Positions 48,767-58,100 of a DNA stretch of 64,000 nt are shown piece by piece. The DNA is taken from contig NC_061770.1 in assembly GCF_022458985.1 (NCBI RefSeq), forward strand, positions 6,109,506 through 6,173,505, read 5' to 3'. Each line of letters starts with the position of its first letter. Positions within the stretch are counted from its first letter, which is position 1. The stretch is from Mugil cephalus. Taxonomy: Eukaryota; Chordata; Actinopteri; Mugiliformes; Mugilidae. The position numbers and the translations under genes are program-made. The notes under the pieces are model-generated. The model saw nothing but the letters and a program-made list of their open reading frames with translations, had not been told where the DNA came from and did not search any database.

Positions 48767-49051
48767 ATGGCTCCTGCTGCTACTGCTGCTGCTGCTGTCC
48801 AGCTCCTGTTGGCTGCCGCCCTGTGGGTGCTGCCTCACATTGGAGCTGTCCCACTGCTGAGCTTCACAGAGCTCCTCAACACAACCACAGCTACAGCTCA
48901 GTCTGACTTCAGGATGTTCACTGGAGCTGTGGCTTTGCCTCGAAGCAGACGTAAGCGAGCCATTTCATCCAGAGAGATGAACGCCCTGCTGGATTACCAC
49001 AACCGAGTCCGCTCCCAGGTCTTCCCCCCTGCTGCTAATATGGAGTACATG
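48767..49051 (+). CDS. r3hdml: R3HDML coding exon 1: secreted CAP-domain protein (peptidase inhibitor R3HDML)
   Basis: R3HDML is a secreted member of the CAP (CRISP/antigen 5/PR-1) superfamily close to PI15; its biochemical role is poorly known. This exon encodes residues 1-95. An Ala/Leu-rich signal peptide covers about 1-27. A furin-type RRKR site (61-64) ends the propeptide, and ISSREMNALLDYHNRVRSQV then opens the CAP domain. The exon ends ATG|GTAAGA in phase 0. Five exons (285, 119, 103, 116, 124 nt) join in frame to 248 residues (human 253). R3HDML, not PI15, is chosen from the neighbours FITM2 and HNF4A. A strong acceptor (CTCCTCCTCCACAG, ending 48760) just before the ATG implies an upstream non-coding exon. 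Confidence 0.9.
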
Positions 49052-49873
49052 GTAAGACACTGACACTGGGGGGAGCAGAAACCAGGCCCTCATTGTACTC
49101 TATGATTGATCCTTTTTAACTTGAATTTATTTTCAAGAAACAAAGTAAATGCACAAAAAAATACAGCAACAAGAATAAGGAACAAGGTGATGTGAGGTGA
49201 AACCACAGAAAAAGAAATGGAAAAAAGAGAGAAAGTGACAAAATAAACACTTTTAGCTTCATGTCCGTTGCAATGTTTATGTTGAAACAGGTGGTGACTT
49301 AGCTGTATAATCATTTTGGAGGATAGTCTGTGGTGCTGTGGTGAATTAAGTACATTTTAGGTGTTTCAGTTGCTTGACCTAGCCCACTGACTAAAATGTT
49401 GTCAAAATACAGAAATATGTGTTGGTAGTACAGCACAGTACAATTCATTAGTACTACAAACCACATGCAGTTGAATCAACAGCTCTGTCTGGCATTTTTA
49501 ATTAACTAATAACTGAATACCACAAACTTCATGAAACTAAAATTTAGTCCTGGACTGTTGAATTATAAAATCTTAGTTTTTATAGGTAAATAGATGAGTT
49601 AATTTGTCCCACAGTCCTGAACACAAGAAGGTCCCAGTCAGCGTCCATAAAACAAGATTTCAATGAATGTTTAATAAATCATTTAAGGATGCCTGCACAC
49701 AACATTTAGTCGTAAATATTCAGCTGTATGTTGAAAATGATATGTCACTGTGTTTAAAGAAGTAAACTTTTATACAAAGTGTAGTTTTATAGTATTTGTT
49801 ATTGTTTGTTTTGCTTTTTACTGAATAGCAGGAAAAAATGATCCTCTCTCCTTTTTCTGCTCCTTCTGTGCAG
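49052..49873 (+). other. r3hdml: R3HDML intron 1
   Basis: GT-AG, 822 bases, AT-rich, nothing recognised. The minus-strand open frames (49090-49314, 49720-50064) are not supported. Confidence 0.75.
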
Positions 49874-49992
49874 CTGTGGGACGATGGGCTCGCTAAGTCC
49901 GCTGACTCATGGGCCTCACGATGCGTTTGGGAACACGGTCCGACGCAAGCCATGAAATATGTGGGCCAAAACCTGTCAGTCACTTCAGGAAG
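49874..49992 (+). CDS. r3hdml: R3HDML coding exon 2 (CAP domain)
   Basis: This exon of 119 nt encodes residues 96-134 plus two bases. It starts CTGTGGGACGAT after TGTGCAG and ends GGAAG|GTCTGT. LWDDGLAKSADSWASRCVWE then HGPTQAMKYVGQNLSV carries the first conserved CAP histidine (His116) and the family GQNLS motif. Confidence 0.94.
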
Positions 49993-50132
49993 GTCTGTTT
50001 TCTGAATCAGCTCACACTGCCAACCGGCTAAAATGATGGAATTTGTGTGATTTAACACGCACACATCTGTTTTGTGCTGCGTGTACTTTACCGTATGTGA
50101 ACGTCTAATTTATTGCGTGCTGAATGTGACAG

Positions 50133-50235
50133 GTACCAGTCCATCACAGACCTGGTCCGGTCCTGGTATGAAGAGAGGCATCGCTTCTCCTACCCGAACA
50201 GATGCAGTGGATCTGTGTGCTCTCACTACACTCAG
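50133..50235 (+). CDS. r3hdml: R3HDML coding exon 3 (CAP domain)
   Basis: This exon of 103 nt, after a 140-base intron, encodes residues 135-169. It contains VRSWYEERHRFSYPNRCSG and the CRISP signature start CSHYTQ with His166. The segment between FSYP and CSHYTQ is shorter than in human R3HDML, which explains part of the length difference. It ends in phase 0 at CACTCAG|GTAGAG. Confidence 0.93.
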
Positions 50236-51148
50236 GTAGAGGACGCATAAATTACAAATTAAACATTCCTTCATGAGGACGATAAGGAGGGCATGTCTCC
50301 AATCCAAAGGATATAAACACTTTGTATCATGAATAGTTTTATGTATCAATATTAACTGCACACAAAGTGCAGAAAACAATATTTTTGTCAGCTTTGTACA
50401 TTAGGACACAGTTTTTCACAGGACTTGGAGAGATCCTCTGTGGATTCAATCTGTCTCAGTTTCTTCTGTTACTTCATGTAACCCTAGACTGACTCCATGA
50501 TGTTGAGATCAGGGCTTTGTTGGAGCTCTACTACATGGTGCAGGCCTCCTCGTGCTTCTTCATTAAAGACGGGTCCTTATGACTCTGGCTTTATGTCTGG
50601 GGTTGTTACGCAGCAGAATGAATCTGATCAGATACCGTCTTGATGGTATTGCATGAAGAGATAATAACCTAATCAACAAGTACCTGCATTTTTTGCATGT
50701 AAAGGGGCACATTTGCTGCAATGGACTGAAGACAAAAGATGCCCAGTGTCTTTGTTTTCTCTCAAAATAAGTTATCTGTCCTTAAGAAGGACACCTTTTC
50801 ATTTTTTTATTGTAATTTTATGTATGGATTGTACAGAATGATGAGAAGAGAAGTGAGTGGACTGGATGAGAAAACTTTTTCGTCTTCATTGTTACATTTT
50901 TTTAACTTCTTCTATTGTAAAATTTAATGCTTAAAAATTCAAACGAATGCACCACAAACATGGCTTTGGGACATAACGATGGCAGTAAACATGTCTCTAT
51001 ATGAGGGTTTGTTTTCCTCATCAAATTCCACAAGCTACCATGGCCACAGCATTATTCATGAGGTTAAACAAATATAAATTCTCAGGATAATCAAAGCCCG
51101 ATGACCTGCTGCCTGAGCTATTAAAATAAATGTGTGTGTTTCTTTCAG
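50236..51148 (+). other. r3hdml: R3HDML intron 3
   Basis: GT-AG, 913 bases. No gene or clear repeat. The 62-codon frame at 50739 is not supported. Confidence 0.7.
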
Positions 51149-51264
51149 ATGGTCTGGGCCAGCACCAGCAGAGTGGGATGTGCCGTCAGAAAATGCTCGA
51201 ACATGTATGTGTTTGGGAAAACCTGGAGAGAAGCAACGCTGCTGGTCTGCAACTACTCTATAAA
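51149..51264 (+). CDS. r3hdml: R3HDML coding exon 4 (CAP domain)
   Basis: This exon of 116 nt encodes residues 170-207 plus two bases of Lys208. MVWASTSRVGCAVRKCSN completes CRISP signature 1, and LLVCNYSIK is signature 2. Flanks are TTCTTTCAG and ATAAA|GTAAGA. Cysteines expected for CAP disulfides are present. Confidence 0.94.
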
Positions 51265-52236
51265 GTAAGAGAAACTTAAAGCAAAGTCGGGGTTATTGAC
51301 TTTCTTACAAACAGTTATAATAGAAGATGGCATTCATGAATGGGAAAGAATGTGTCAGAACAAATCAATGCAGACAAATACTTTTATTCAGGTTTATCAT
51401 GCTCTTCACTCATACAGAAAACTCAAAAACACATCTGACATCTGACACATCTGACTGCTGTTTTCATTTGCTTTGCTCTTTTGTTCCTATCACCTACTGC
51501 CCCTACGTGACCTGCAATGTGCATCTGCCCCACTTACATTACATCCAGTGAAACCTCAAGTTATGCATCACAACTCTAGTTAGTGTTATGCATCATCTAA
51601 GATATAAAAAAGAAAAAGAAAAAAAAACTCTTAAGTTATTCTTCAACATGGCATTCTTCTACAAGAAGGATAAATTATGATCTCATAATATTTTAGTATA
51701 AATACAGATCATCAGACACAGAGTAGACCAGTTGGTGCTGTGTACAGTCTCTTAAGATAAAGGAGATTTTGTAATTTAAGAAGTTGGGACTCAAAACACA
51801 GGCTTGGCCAGAGTTGTGGCATATGACACAGATATCATCACCAGAAAATATAAAAAGTGTTCTTTAGACCAGGTGAGCTTTTAAAACAAGGATGACGACG
51901 AACAGTTTACTTTTCTTTTACAGCAAATGTGAATTAATCTTCTGCTGAAAATGGCCCCAAAGAAACACAGTGTTCGCTCAAATATGAGGAACATTTGTTA
52001 AGATTTGTTTTAAGAATAAAAGTATGGATTTATAGTTTTACATCTGAAGGTTGACGATGCTGAGTGTAACAGGGAGGGAAGCTAGGAAGTACGGCCAATA
52101 GAGACTGTTTGGTTTTTAGCTTATGTTTGGATGCATTAACAACAGCTAACATATTGCATTTTTTACTCAAGTACGTACTTGAACCACAACATCCATCACA
52201 AGGCTTTAGCTGACATTACGTTTGTTTGTCTTTCAG
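51265..52236 (+). other. r3hdml: R3HDML intron 4
   Basis: GT-AG, 972 bases, AT-rich. No gene or clear repeat recognised. Confidence 0.7.
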
Positions 52237-52360
52237 AGGAAACTGGGTGGGAGAGGCTCCATATAAGACCGGGAAGCCCTGTTCTCTCTGTCCGTCCAGC
52301 TATGGAGGATCCTGCTGGAGAAACCAGTGCTCGCCAAACACAAAACCCAGAAGGATTTAA
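52237..52360 (+). CDS. r3hdml: R3HDML coding exon 5 (C-terminus)
   Basis: This exon of 124 nt encodes residues 208-248 and the TAA stop after [28 protein letters not shown] then [11 protein letters not shown] matches the short Cys-rich tail of R3HDML and PI15. The last residues (SPNTKPRRI) differ from both mammalian proteins, so the extreme C-terminus is not conserved. A second open frame through this exon (from 52179) is out of phase with the donor and is rejected. Confidence 0.9.
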
Positions 52361-53440: not shown

Positions 53441-53450
53441 TCCCTAAACA

Positions 53451-53454
<4 letters not shown>

Positions 53455-53530
<76 letters not shown>
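53455..53530. repeat. (CA)n microsatellite
   Basis: Thirty-eight pure CA units, at the left edge of a dispersed repeat. Confidence 0.97.
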
Positions 53531-53531
<1 letters not shown>

Positions 53532-53900
53532 TTGTATGGCTATCTTTGTCAGGACATTCATTCACATAAAGCATTGCCCCTTGCCTTAACCCTAACCACA
53601 ACCTAATTGTGTCCTTTAGCCTAAAATCAAGTCAAACCCTCAAACAGCCTCCAAAAAAGTGAGGAACACCCAAAGTGTCCTCACTTTGCACAGAGGTCCT
53701 CACTCCAATGTTGTAAAACTCAAAATGGTCCTCAGAAAGATAGCCGTAAAAGACCAGACACACCCAAACAAACTTGTGTTTTCATCTTTGTGAGGACTTT
53801 AATTAATGTATTGCATTTTGTGTACCCTTACGCTAACCCTAAGCTAATTGTTACTTAAACTGTAAAATGACTAAATAAAGCAAAAACCAAAAGCACACAC
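53531..53900. repeat. dispersed fish repeat ('gtgaggacattcattcacataaagcattg' type), two partial copies
   Basis: The unit with 'atctttgtcaggacattcattcacataaagcattgcccc' and 'ttaaccctaacc' is followed about 250 bases later by a second, diverged copy ('atctttgtgaggactttaattaatg', 'gtacccttacgctaaccctaagc'). It is a known kind of fish interspersed repeat that sits beside CA microsatellites. The CCCTAA words are part of this repeat and are not a telomere. Confidence 0.55.
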
Positions 53901-54865: not shown

Positions 54866-54879
54866 GGTTACTGTTTAAC
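54866..54879 (+). promoter_or_regulatory. hnf4a: HNF1-type site in the HNF4A P2 promoter
   Basis: GGTTACTGTTTAAC fits the HNF1 consensus GGTTAATNATTAAC with two changes, about 190 bases upstream of the P2 start codon. The mammalian P2 promoter is known to be driven by HNF1A/B. Function here is inferred. Confidence 0.55.
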
Positions 54880-54907
54880 CTCCCCACCCACATTTGCCCA
54901 GATTAGG

Positions 54908-54923
54908 AAAATCAATAAGATAA
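54908..54923 (+). promoter_or_regulatory. hnf4a: ONECUT (HNF6) site overlapping a GATA site
   Basis: AAATCAATAA matches the ONECUT core, and AGATAA follows directly. Mammalian P2 also has an HNF6 site. A TAAT core (55008-55011) that could take PDX1 lies nearer the start. Confidence 0.5.
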
Positions 54924-55067
54924 CAGCGGCAACACCGGCCTTACCTTGCACCAACAACACCCTTCTCACACTACGCCGACCTGCACCAAACTTCCACATT
55001 TTACACCTAATAGTGAGGAAGGAAAAGTGGATTTAAAACGTATGCTCGGGAGGAAGAGGAGGACGAC

Positions 55068-55116
55068 ATGGTCAATGTAAACACACAAGTCAGTTCAAGT
55101 ATGGAACTTCCATTTG
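55068..55116 (+). CDS. hnf4a: HNF4A first coding exon of the P2 transcript (exon 1D)
   Basis: HNF4A is a nuclear receptor controlling liver, gut and pancreatic beta-cell genes; its distal P2 promoter makes isoforms with a short distinct N-terminus. From ATG 55068 the sequence reads MVNVNTQVSSSMELPF, then one base and a GTGAGT donor. Human exon 1D encodes MVSVNAPLGAPVESSY with the same length (16 codons plus one base) and phase. The place right after R3HDML on the same strand fits human synteny. Exon 2 and the P1 first exon (MRLSK...MADYSAALDP type) were not found, so they lie beyond 64000. Confidence 0.75.
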
Positions 55117-58100
55117 GTGAGTACACACTTTCGTTGCTATTAACTCGGCTCCGTGGCTTTAGTAGAATAAAAAAAAAAAAGAAAGAAAGAAAGTCAAGTG
55201 TGGCCTGTGTTCGCGTTTTCTTTTTTTGTGGTGGATTGTGCAGCAGCCATTTCCGAGCTCTGCGGGATCAAGGCACACTCAGGGTGGAAATATCCTCGCC
55301 ATATGTGTCTGGCATTTTCACACGGCTGTAATCCAGGAGGTGTGTCAGAGATATGGAGGTTGTTAAAAAAGGCCATGGGAGTTAGGCCTGATGGTGATGA
55401 TGGTTCAGAGGGTTTTGGATGTGAGAGCGCCGTGAGTCAGAGGATGATTTGTTGTGTTGTGTTTGGGAAGCTCTGGCAAGAAATGGGGAGCTGAAAGTCC
55501 AAGATTTCATGGCTGCGGTGTATAGTGCTCAAGAAACAAACACAGTAAAGGGTTCTTTTAAGATCCCAGAGGCAGCTGGAGGGTGAAAACCCATTGGATT
55601 TCTGTTCTGAACAATCTGAATGAACAGTTTAACGTCTCACAGCTTTGCTCAGTTACAGCAGTTGGTGGGTGTTTAGTTTTTCTCGTGGTCATTCATTAAA
55701 TGATTTGCATGTCATGGTGTGCTGTGGAGATGCAAATCCATTATAACAAAGGCTCAATCTAATGTGAGAAAAAAAATCAATAAAAAGCTGATGTGTCCCT
55801 GAACACATACTACTGTATAATCAAGAGTAGTTTACTCCAGTGACTACTCTACTACTCTTACAGCTAGCATAGCATCAACAAGTAGGTTTATTCCTGCTCA
55901 TGCTCTTTCTATTTCTTTTTAATCCATAATAAGACTCCTGCTATACTGAAGTATCAGCTAACCATTTAAGCACAGAGAAATGTCCATGACTACTCAGAAG
56001 GCTGACTGATAAATGACTGCAGCTGTCATCAAGACCAGTTTTTAGCTGGTGCTAAAACACATCAATCAAATCAGCATCTCAAGTTTCCTCACAGTTTCTC
56101 TTGGTGACTTGCCTCCCCCCGACAATTTCTTTTCTATTTACTTGCGTCCTACGAGTAAATGAAGCGAATGAACTCTCCAGGCTAACAAATATGGGTCAGA
56201 TGGGCACCTCTGAGAAAATAAAGAAACGTCACTGCCTCATCTAGGGCGAAAACAAATGACGTTTGTCTTTAATGTGAAGTAGTGATACACAGCAAAACTA
56301 AAAGAGGCAGAAATAAATAAGGAACAATGTGTCAGATATAATGTTCACTCTGCCCGTTATAGAATATGCAAAGGCCGTCTTCACCCAGCTCTGTCCCTTT
56401 AATCCGGTGCAACACCACTCAGTGGTCAGGGATGTCCTACCTGCACAACAAATTAACAGATTATTTTCTGTCCTGCCCTAAAAAGAGAATGGTAGCAAAA
56501 AAATAGCAGGATGATAACTCACCTAGCTACATTATACATTAGCCTGGTCAGTCTCACTATCTGTTTCAACAACTGTTAATACGCTATAGCTCATAAAGTT
56601 GGAATAAAATATGCTTTACCTCTTCTCATGAAATGACTGTGACTATGTGATTTGTATATGTAGGGGGAAAAAGGTTTGAAAACAAAATTAGTTTTTGGGC
56701 AACAGTTTATTAAATCAATGAAAATAGAACCACTTTCACTTTTCCACTTTTCACAAGTTAATCTTACAGTGTGAAGGTGTCTCATTAGTGATCTCTTCTC
56801 TGACTGCTTGTCAATAACTCCGGCCCAACTGCGTACAGACAAAGACTCAAAGGCTCAGCATTTTTAGATTTATTGTTGAACCAATCAAAGGTGTAACGGC
56901 TCTTTGACATTTTGTGTATTTATATGAGCTATTGAGCTTCAATATTTTTTCTGCATTTTGTGTCTGGCTCATCATTTTTAAGGACGGTTATTTAGTTTGT
57001 TGTCTTTAAAAATAATAATGTACCACTTCAGTGTCGAATAGACTCAGAGACTAATTAATGTGGTGCATTAACTCACGCCACAATGAAAACCACAAACCAT
57101 TTCATTCAAGCCAACGAGAAAAAATATGTCACAGCAGATGTCCACAAAAAAATAGACATTTGACAACGTTTGTCTTAAGCCTGTTTACACCACAATTACA
57201 CCACTGTGGTTTCCCTTGTTTGTGTGATGTTTGTTAAAGGAATCTGAACCCAGATAACTGTGTGTGTTAGGTAAACAAGCTAACAAGCTAAAGAAGCTGA
57301 ACAGTTTTCCTTAACAAGCTGTTTCTAAATATTTATGGCCGTGTTCAGTCGGAGACCAACTGACTTGGAGATGAGGGCCACAGATAGGCTGGAAAAGGGG
57401 AAAGTCCTGAGAGACATGCAACCAGTAACAAATAAATACAATATTTCCATATATTCCATATTGTTTACATAACTAGCAAACATCACATTGGTCAAAAAAA
57501 AAGAAAAAAAAATATTGCAAAGCTCAAATATAAGAAAGAAAACTGTTTGTCACCACATCTCAGATTACTGTTTTTGAGTACAATAGCAACATTTTGTGTG
57601 AGGACTTGTTTACAGTATATGCTTGACAAATCTTCCAAAACCAGGACATTTATGTTACATTCTTTGGCAGCTGCCAGCTCTAAGCTTCTTTTTAGCCTAG
57701 ATCGGGTTATACTTTGCGTCTTTGTCCAGTCAAGCTACAAACCTCAGTTCAGGCTCATTCTACTTTAAACGTTTCCAGGAAGCAAACACGTAAGACATTT
57801 TGATCATTTTCTAAAAATGAATTCTCCTCTTCATGCATGCATCCACTGAGACAGTCAACCCCTCCTCCTTCAAAGCCAACTTTCAGCACACAGAGCCCCC
57901 ATAGTTTGTGTCAGACATATGGGATTAATTGCTCAACGGTCGCAGACTGGACAAACTCACGAGCTCTGCTGCTGGCGGAATCACTTGGTGAATGTAAACA
58001 TGACAACAGCCGCTGAACAGACCCTCAGCAGATATCTGTTTGCCTACAAAGCTGAATTACTTGAAAGCGTAGCAAAGAGAGGCAGGGCCTCTCAAAGCAC

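Follow-up and report, generated by a model that had tools for sequence, protein, structure and literature searches.

The closest described counterpart of the locus analyzed here is the P2 promoter of human and mouse HNF4A together with its first exon, 1D, from which isoforms HNF4-alpha 7-12 derive. In mammals, P2 lies ~50 kb upstream of the P1 promoter, and the available text of the same paper already describes exon 1D as conserved in most vertebrates; the word "fish" is absent from the main text as far as it is available (PMC10438950). According to the accessible part of a study of human P2, this promoter contains HNF-1, PDX1 and HNF-6 sites, and variants identified in families with MODY affect c.-181G and c.-169C, 12 bp apart within the HNF1 site. 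At S.12, the site has T where the consensus GTTAATNATTAAC has A; its affinity for HNF1A is about one third that of the rat albumin site (304 vs 100 nM), and it works at ~40-50% of the level of the latter (PMC11382887). The paralogous gene HNF4G encodes HNF4-gamma 1, which is devoid of the N-terminal activation domain, and a review, in its available portion, calls the origin of gamma 1 and gamma 2, from different promoters or by splicing, unclear (PMC10450339). For fish, a study of Hnf4a in grass carp and zebrafish mentions seven zebrafish isoforms and, in the sections available, describes P1 and P2 for mammals only (PMC12425335). We recognized no published fish P2 in the literature searched, which lacks most subscription papers.

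We analyzed a 64-kb stretch of flathead grey mullet DNA (hereafter, the window; C1:6109506-6173505), to which the next 50 kb were added (114 kb total), with extended coordinates continuing the window numbering rightwards; the genome scanned comprises 634.8 Mb in 24 contigs (G000). Judging from the sequence, the segment 54866-55122 is very likely the P2 promoter and the first exon (1D) of fish hnf4a. This assignment draws on the unique form of the exon and its MVxVN start, the linked HNF4A exons in the matching phase, the identity of the HNF1-site bases to the human ones, the rarity of the motif array, and a second copy of the element at hnf4g. The features are listed in Table 1.

Table 1. Predicted features of the hnf4a P2 locus and of its hnf4g counterpart. 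Coordinates are those of the window unless a contig is given.
Feature	Coordinates	Strand	Basis or comment
R3HDML-type CAP gene, five coding exons	48767..52360	+	Pfam CAP 1.4e-21; exons read by eye from ORFs, limits approximate
61-bp core of P2, carrying the HNF1, CACCC, homeobox and ONECUT motifs	54866..54926	+	
Predicted HNF1 site, GTTACTGTTTAAC	54867..54879	+	Motif; human bases from the text of PMC11382887
CACCC/KLF-SP-type box, CCCCACCC	54882..54889	+	Identical in the hnf4g element
Predicted homeobox (PDX1-type) site, GATTAGG	54901..54907	+	Motif
Predicted ONECUT/HNF6-type site, AAAATCAATAA	54908..54918	+	Exact match
Upstream ORF of 12 codons, out of frame with the exon 1D start that it overlaps; its own start context is weak	55042..55080	+	
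HNF4A exon 1D, coding part, MVNVNTQVSSSMELPF + G	55068..55116	+	ORF reading, pattern scans, junction with exon 2
Exon 1D 5' splice donor, GTGAGT	55117..55122	+	Intron would reach exon 2 at extended coordinate 68800 (C1:6178305)
P2-like element and phase-1 donor	C18:15170828-15171094	+	~6.2 kb upstream of hnf4g exon 2

The first-pass annotation of this DNA had proposed an exon of 16 codons plus one base followed by a GTGAGT donor, and this description proved exact: the start codon occupies 55068-55070, the 16 sense codons extend to 55115, and the additional base is a G. On both strands of the window, an ATG followed by 15 sense codons, one base and GTRAG occurs at one site only, and the sole M-V-x-V-N codon run coincides with it. 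Within 114 kb, three sites have this exon form (two on the plus strand and one on the minus strand), of which only the one at 55068 starts with MVxVN. Under a first-order Markov null, ~2.0 open exons of this form are expected per 64 kb, and none of those found when both strands of 10 Mb of simulated sequence (20 Mb in total) were scanned started with MVxVN. With respect to human exon 1D, which likewise consists of 16 codons plus one base with an MVxVN start, the proposed likeness stands for length, phase and these opening residues, but it is weaker than had been implied over the peptide as a whole, where most residues differ and only 5/16 (M1, V2, V4, N5, E13) are the same as in the human peptide. 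In a tblastn search of the window with the human exon, the top-ranked match was exon 1D itself, with a non-significant E value of 4.0. The short upstream ORF that overlaps the start codon could reduce translation only if the transcript begins upstream of 55042.

No other HNF4A exons were found within the 64-kb window. The body of the gene was located in the adjoining 50 kb, 12.6-16 kb downstream of exon 1D and with the same orientation on the chromosome. The ATG of exon 1A is at extended coordinate 67681, so that the two start codons are 12.6 kb apart, compared with the ~50 kb between P2 and P1 given for mammals in the available text of PMC10438950. Exon 2 begins with AC at 68800 and is preceded by ...TGTGTCAG ending in AG. 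Exons 1A and 1D, although separate, both end in a single G and join exon 2 in phase 1; for exon 1D, the terminal G followed by AC restores Asp, and the same holds for exon 1A, with junctions reading F-D-S-S-P and T-D-S-S-P, respectively, which bears out the earlier argument from phase. In the PDB, the exon-2 peptide matches HNF4-alpha best, and two ligand-domain exons scored higher against solved structures of HNF4A than against those of HNF4G (81.7 vs 69.2 bits and 160 vs 153, respectively). These matches support the identity of the downstream gene as HNF4A rather than a paralog, in agreement with the gene to which the first-pass annotation had assigned the exon.

To compare the HNF1 site with its human counterpart, we placed S.5 at 54867 and considered the HNF1-site bases that are given in the available text of PMC11382887. 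The fish site has G at S.4 and S.5 (c.-181, 54867), T at S.12, S.13 and S.14, and C at S.17 (c.-169, 54879), and is thus identical to the human site at every base named or implied in that text (S.13 is implied via AS.A9). The T at 54874, position 8 of the site, is the off-consensus T of human P2. The flanking c.-192C is not kept, being replaced, in straight register, by A 11 bp before the first G of the HNF1 site, and the site is 20 bp farther from the ATG than in human P2 (last C at -189 vs c.-169). No printed strings of human P2 or exon 1D were found by text search of the literature. A 57-letter version of the human element, possibly biased towards the fish sequence, is nearly identical to the fish one and aligns from 54866 on with one 2-base gap; it is a lead only, given that no printed copy was found. 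The conserved block begins at 54866, which was also the left limit of the feature as initially delineated. Human P2 is a MODY diabetes locus, and two disease-linked bases of its HNF1 site are unchanged in a ray-finned fish; because both the bases at the MODY positions and the off-consensus letter are retained, the comparison suggests that weak HNF1 binding is a selected property rather than an accident.

Downstream of the HNF1 site, the 61-bp core element contains, in this order, the CACCC box, which the first-pass annotation lacked and for which we presume a factor of the KLF-SP class from the motif, and the homeobox and ONECUT sites; exon 1D begins 141 bp after the end of the element. HNF1-like, ONECUT-like and TAAT sites upstream of the exon had been pointed out, and sites of these kinds are present, although taken singly they are not specific. 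With up to 2 mismatches, the HNF1 consensus has 5 matches in the window vs 4.84 expected, and the ONECUT string, with up to 1 mismatch, has 12 vs 4.0 expected, two of them exact (54908 and 55773); single-motif counts were therefore dropped as evidence. The ordered array is a different matter: an HNF1 site (up to 2 mismatches), ATTA or TAAT, and ATCAATA, in this order and within 62 bp, come together at one place in 114 kb and at two places in 10 Mb of simulated sequence (~0.02 expected per 114 kb). No other such array was found in the 114 kb, which include P1. The kilobase before the P1 ATG contains, widely separated, an ATCAAT and an HNF1-like site (2 mismatches); such motifs are therefore not peculiar to P2. 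The GATTAG-ONECUT core has one exact place in the 635-Mb genome and one two-mismatch place elsewhere (2 for the reversed control), and, as expected, no exact match in viral contigs and prokaryote genome contigs. At the level of motif presence, the kinds of factors also agree with those of human P2, for which HNF-1, PDX1 and HNF-6 sites are named in the available text of PMC11382887; the shared features comprise these three inputs, c.-181G, c.-169C and the off-consensus T. The second exact copy of AAAATCAATAA, at 55773-55783, lies ~650 bp into the first intron.

The HNF1+CACCC half of the element is not confined to hnf4a, and its copy at hnf4g is a new finding of the present work. At up to 2 mismatches, GGTTACTNTTTAACNNNNCCACCCAC matched two places in the whole genome (0 for the reversed pattern). 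One is hnf4a P2 itself, without mismatches; the other, with 2 mismatches, is C18:15170828 (plus strand), and each precedes an HNF4 gene in sense orientation. A further pattern, GGTTACTGTTTAACNTCCCCACCC, composed after the result with GGTTACTNTTTAACNNNNCCACCCAC was known and yielding counts that can be lower bounds, was allowed up to 3 mismatches and was again reported at two places in the 635 Mb, both of them exact (reversed pattern, 0); assuming independent bases and 40% GC, ~1e-5 exact matches to the 23 letters of this pattern and ~0.5 matches with exactly 3 mismatches are expected genome-wide. The gene on C18 is taken to be hnf4g because its ligand-domain exon scored 75.8 bits against solved HNF4-gamma vs 53.2 against HNF4-alpha.

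The layout of the two genes is similar as well. At hnf4g, the HNF1 site is followed, 267 bp from its first base (251 bp at hnf4a), by a strong donor, CAG/GTAAGT, the last exon base being C18:15171094, and exon 2 (~C18:15177014) begins with AC after AG, that is, in the same phase as in hnf4a. An exon of the 1A type (MEVANYCEGLDPSYSTLGFENAEVL...) is found ~1.5 kb before exon 2, and, given the phase-1 donor farther upstream, two first exons seem to exist for hnf4g as well. Unlike hnf4a, hnf4g is preceded by no MVxVN run on the sense strand over 30 kb; before the donor are an ATG in weak context, 10 codons and a G. The candidate first exon of hnf4g may accordingly encode up to 10 codons from this weak ATG, or translation may start at a Met in exon 2.

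A third HNF4-type gene, at C3:7613405, is more diverged (e.g., RSIRNNHTYNCR in exon 2) and scored 48.2 bits against gamma vs 42.8 against alpha, a small margin; by elimination, it is probably hnf4b. In the ~29 kb upstream of this gene, no P2-like element rose above background (best local score 30 vs 28 for unrelated DNA) and no convincing 1A-like or 1D-like exon was found.

The presence of the HNF1+CACCC block at hnf4a and hnf4g only, with 43/61 bases identical without gaps over 61 bp and a phase-1 donor following in both cases, suggests that P2 probably predates the split between HNF4A and HNF4G. The main alternative is that the likeness reflects convergence or a late copy, by gene conversion or transposition, rather than ancestry before the split. 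We consider this unlikely, while granting it appreciable weight: the comparison is made within one fish genome, the C3 paralog has no such element in the upstream DNA searched, and identity drops to 20/37 (including AAATC.AT at the ONECUT site) past the first 24 bp. When gaps are allowed, the weaker half is marginal, scores as high being reached by 90/5000 shuffles and 726/20000 real 42-mers. In the fixed ungapped register, however, only 196/377,526 other 37-mers do as well as these 37 bp. The identity of 23/24 bases in the first part and the report of no more than two places in the 635-Mb genome when up to 3 mismatches are allowed, each in sense orientation before an HNF4 gene, argue against coincidence. 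Moreover, the 60-bp flanks of the two elements are at background (16/60 and 20/60 identical), so the hnf4g element does not look like a recent copy.

Much less probable, in our assessment, is that the 61-bp element acts as a distal enhancer, whether for hnf4a or for R3HDML, and precedes an open frame by coincidence, with exon 1D unused in fish. The retention of so few residues of the human peptide would fit such a scenario, but the only exon of its length, phase and donor type in 64 kb starts a short distance past the element and carries MVxVN, and the hnf4g element, too, is followed by a strong phase-1 donor at a comparable distance. That a random open frame and donor merely arose near random AT-rich motifs, each of them non-specific on its own, is hardly credible in view of the joint nulls, the phase-matched HNF4A body to which the exon is linked, and the hnf4g copy.

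If 54866-55122 is indeed P2 with exon 1D, HNF1A or HNF1B would bind the weak, off-consensus site, and a CACCC-box factor, a homeodomain protein of the PDX1 type and an ONECUT factor would assist from sites in the 40 bp that follow. Transcription from this pancreas-type start site would begin between about 54930 and 55068, and exon 1D would be spliced past the P1 promoter and exon 1A onto exon 2. The product would be an HNF4-alpha in which a short N-terminus replaces the AF-1 encoded by exon 1A. Models of fish hnf4a should separate P1 and P2 isoforms.

The greater surprise among these observations is the copy at hnf4g, and we lean, with moderate confidence, towards a joint evolutionary reading. 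The origin of P2 would antedate the separation of HNF4A from HNF4G in the early vertebrate genome duplications, and both genes would have inherited P1, with exon 1A encoding AF-1, and P2, with the HNF1-CACCC-homeobox-ONECUT array and a short or non-coding first exon. HNF4A would have retained a coding first exon (1D), whereas that of HNF4G would be non-coding or nearly so, yielding a protein without AF-1. The hnf4g element may thus drive HNF4-gamma 1 (no AF-1; kidney, gut, pancreas), which would be the P2 product of HNF4G, gamma 2 being the P1 product; the layout predicts that the two isoforms come from different promoters. Given that both genes carry the same off-consensus letters, the HNF1 site would have been held weak by selection in both. 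In mouse pancreas, Hnf4g and, through P2, Hnf4a are reportedly both under the control of HNF1A. This would be in keeping with a shared ancestral promoter, and a single ancestral promoter could be the reason why both genes can answer to HNF1. The question of whether gamma 1 and gamma 2 differ by promoter or by splicing could then be reduced to the search for one 61-bp element before human and mouse HNF4G.

The neighborhood of the locus is consistent with its identification. The placement of the exon just after R3HDML, on the right strand, was correct: the coding part of a CAP-domain gene on the plus strand, which we take to be R3HDML from its domain and gene order, ends at 52360, 2.7 kb upstream of exon 1D. 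Farther upstream, FITM2 (Pfam FIT) is encoded on the minus strand at 41 kb, an exon with a GST C-terminal domain, of the GDAP1L1 type, is on the plus strand at 36 kb, and MORN repeats of the junctophilin type are on the minus strand at 16.7-17.6 kb; a TTPAL-like exon is located to the right of HNF4A. The names junctophilin, GDAP1L1 and TTPAL are assumed here from similarity. Gene order and orientation around HNF4A are presumably the same as in human, where P2 lies between R3HDML and P1. Within 30 kb around or upstream of exon 2 of the C18 and C3 genes, no relatives of R3HDML, FITM2, GDAP1L1 or JPH2 were found. A long CA/TG dinucleotide run (53450-53540), apparent as a TH/CV repeat in ORF translations, separates R3HDML from the P2 element. 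Downstream of HNF4A, there is an open frame of 371 codons on the plus strand (extended coordinates 107239-108351), which presumably resembles a Tc1-type transposase.
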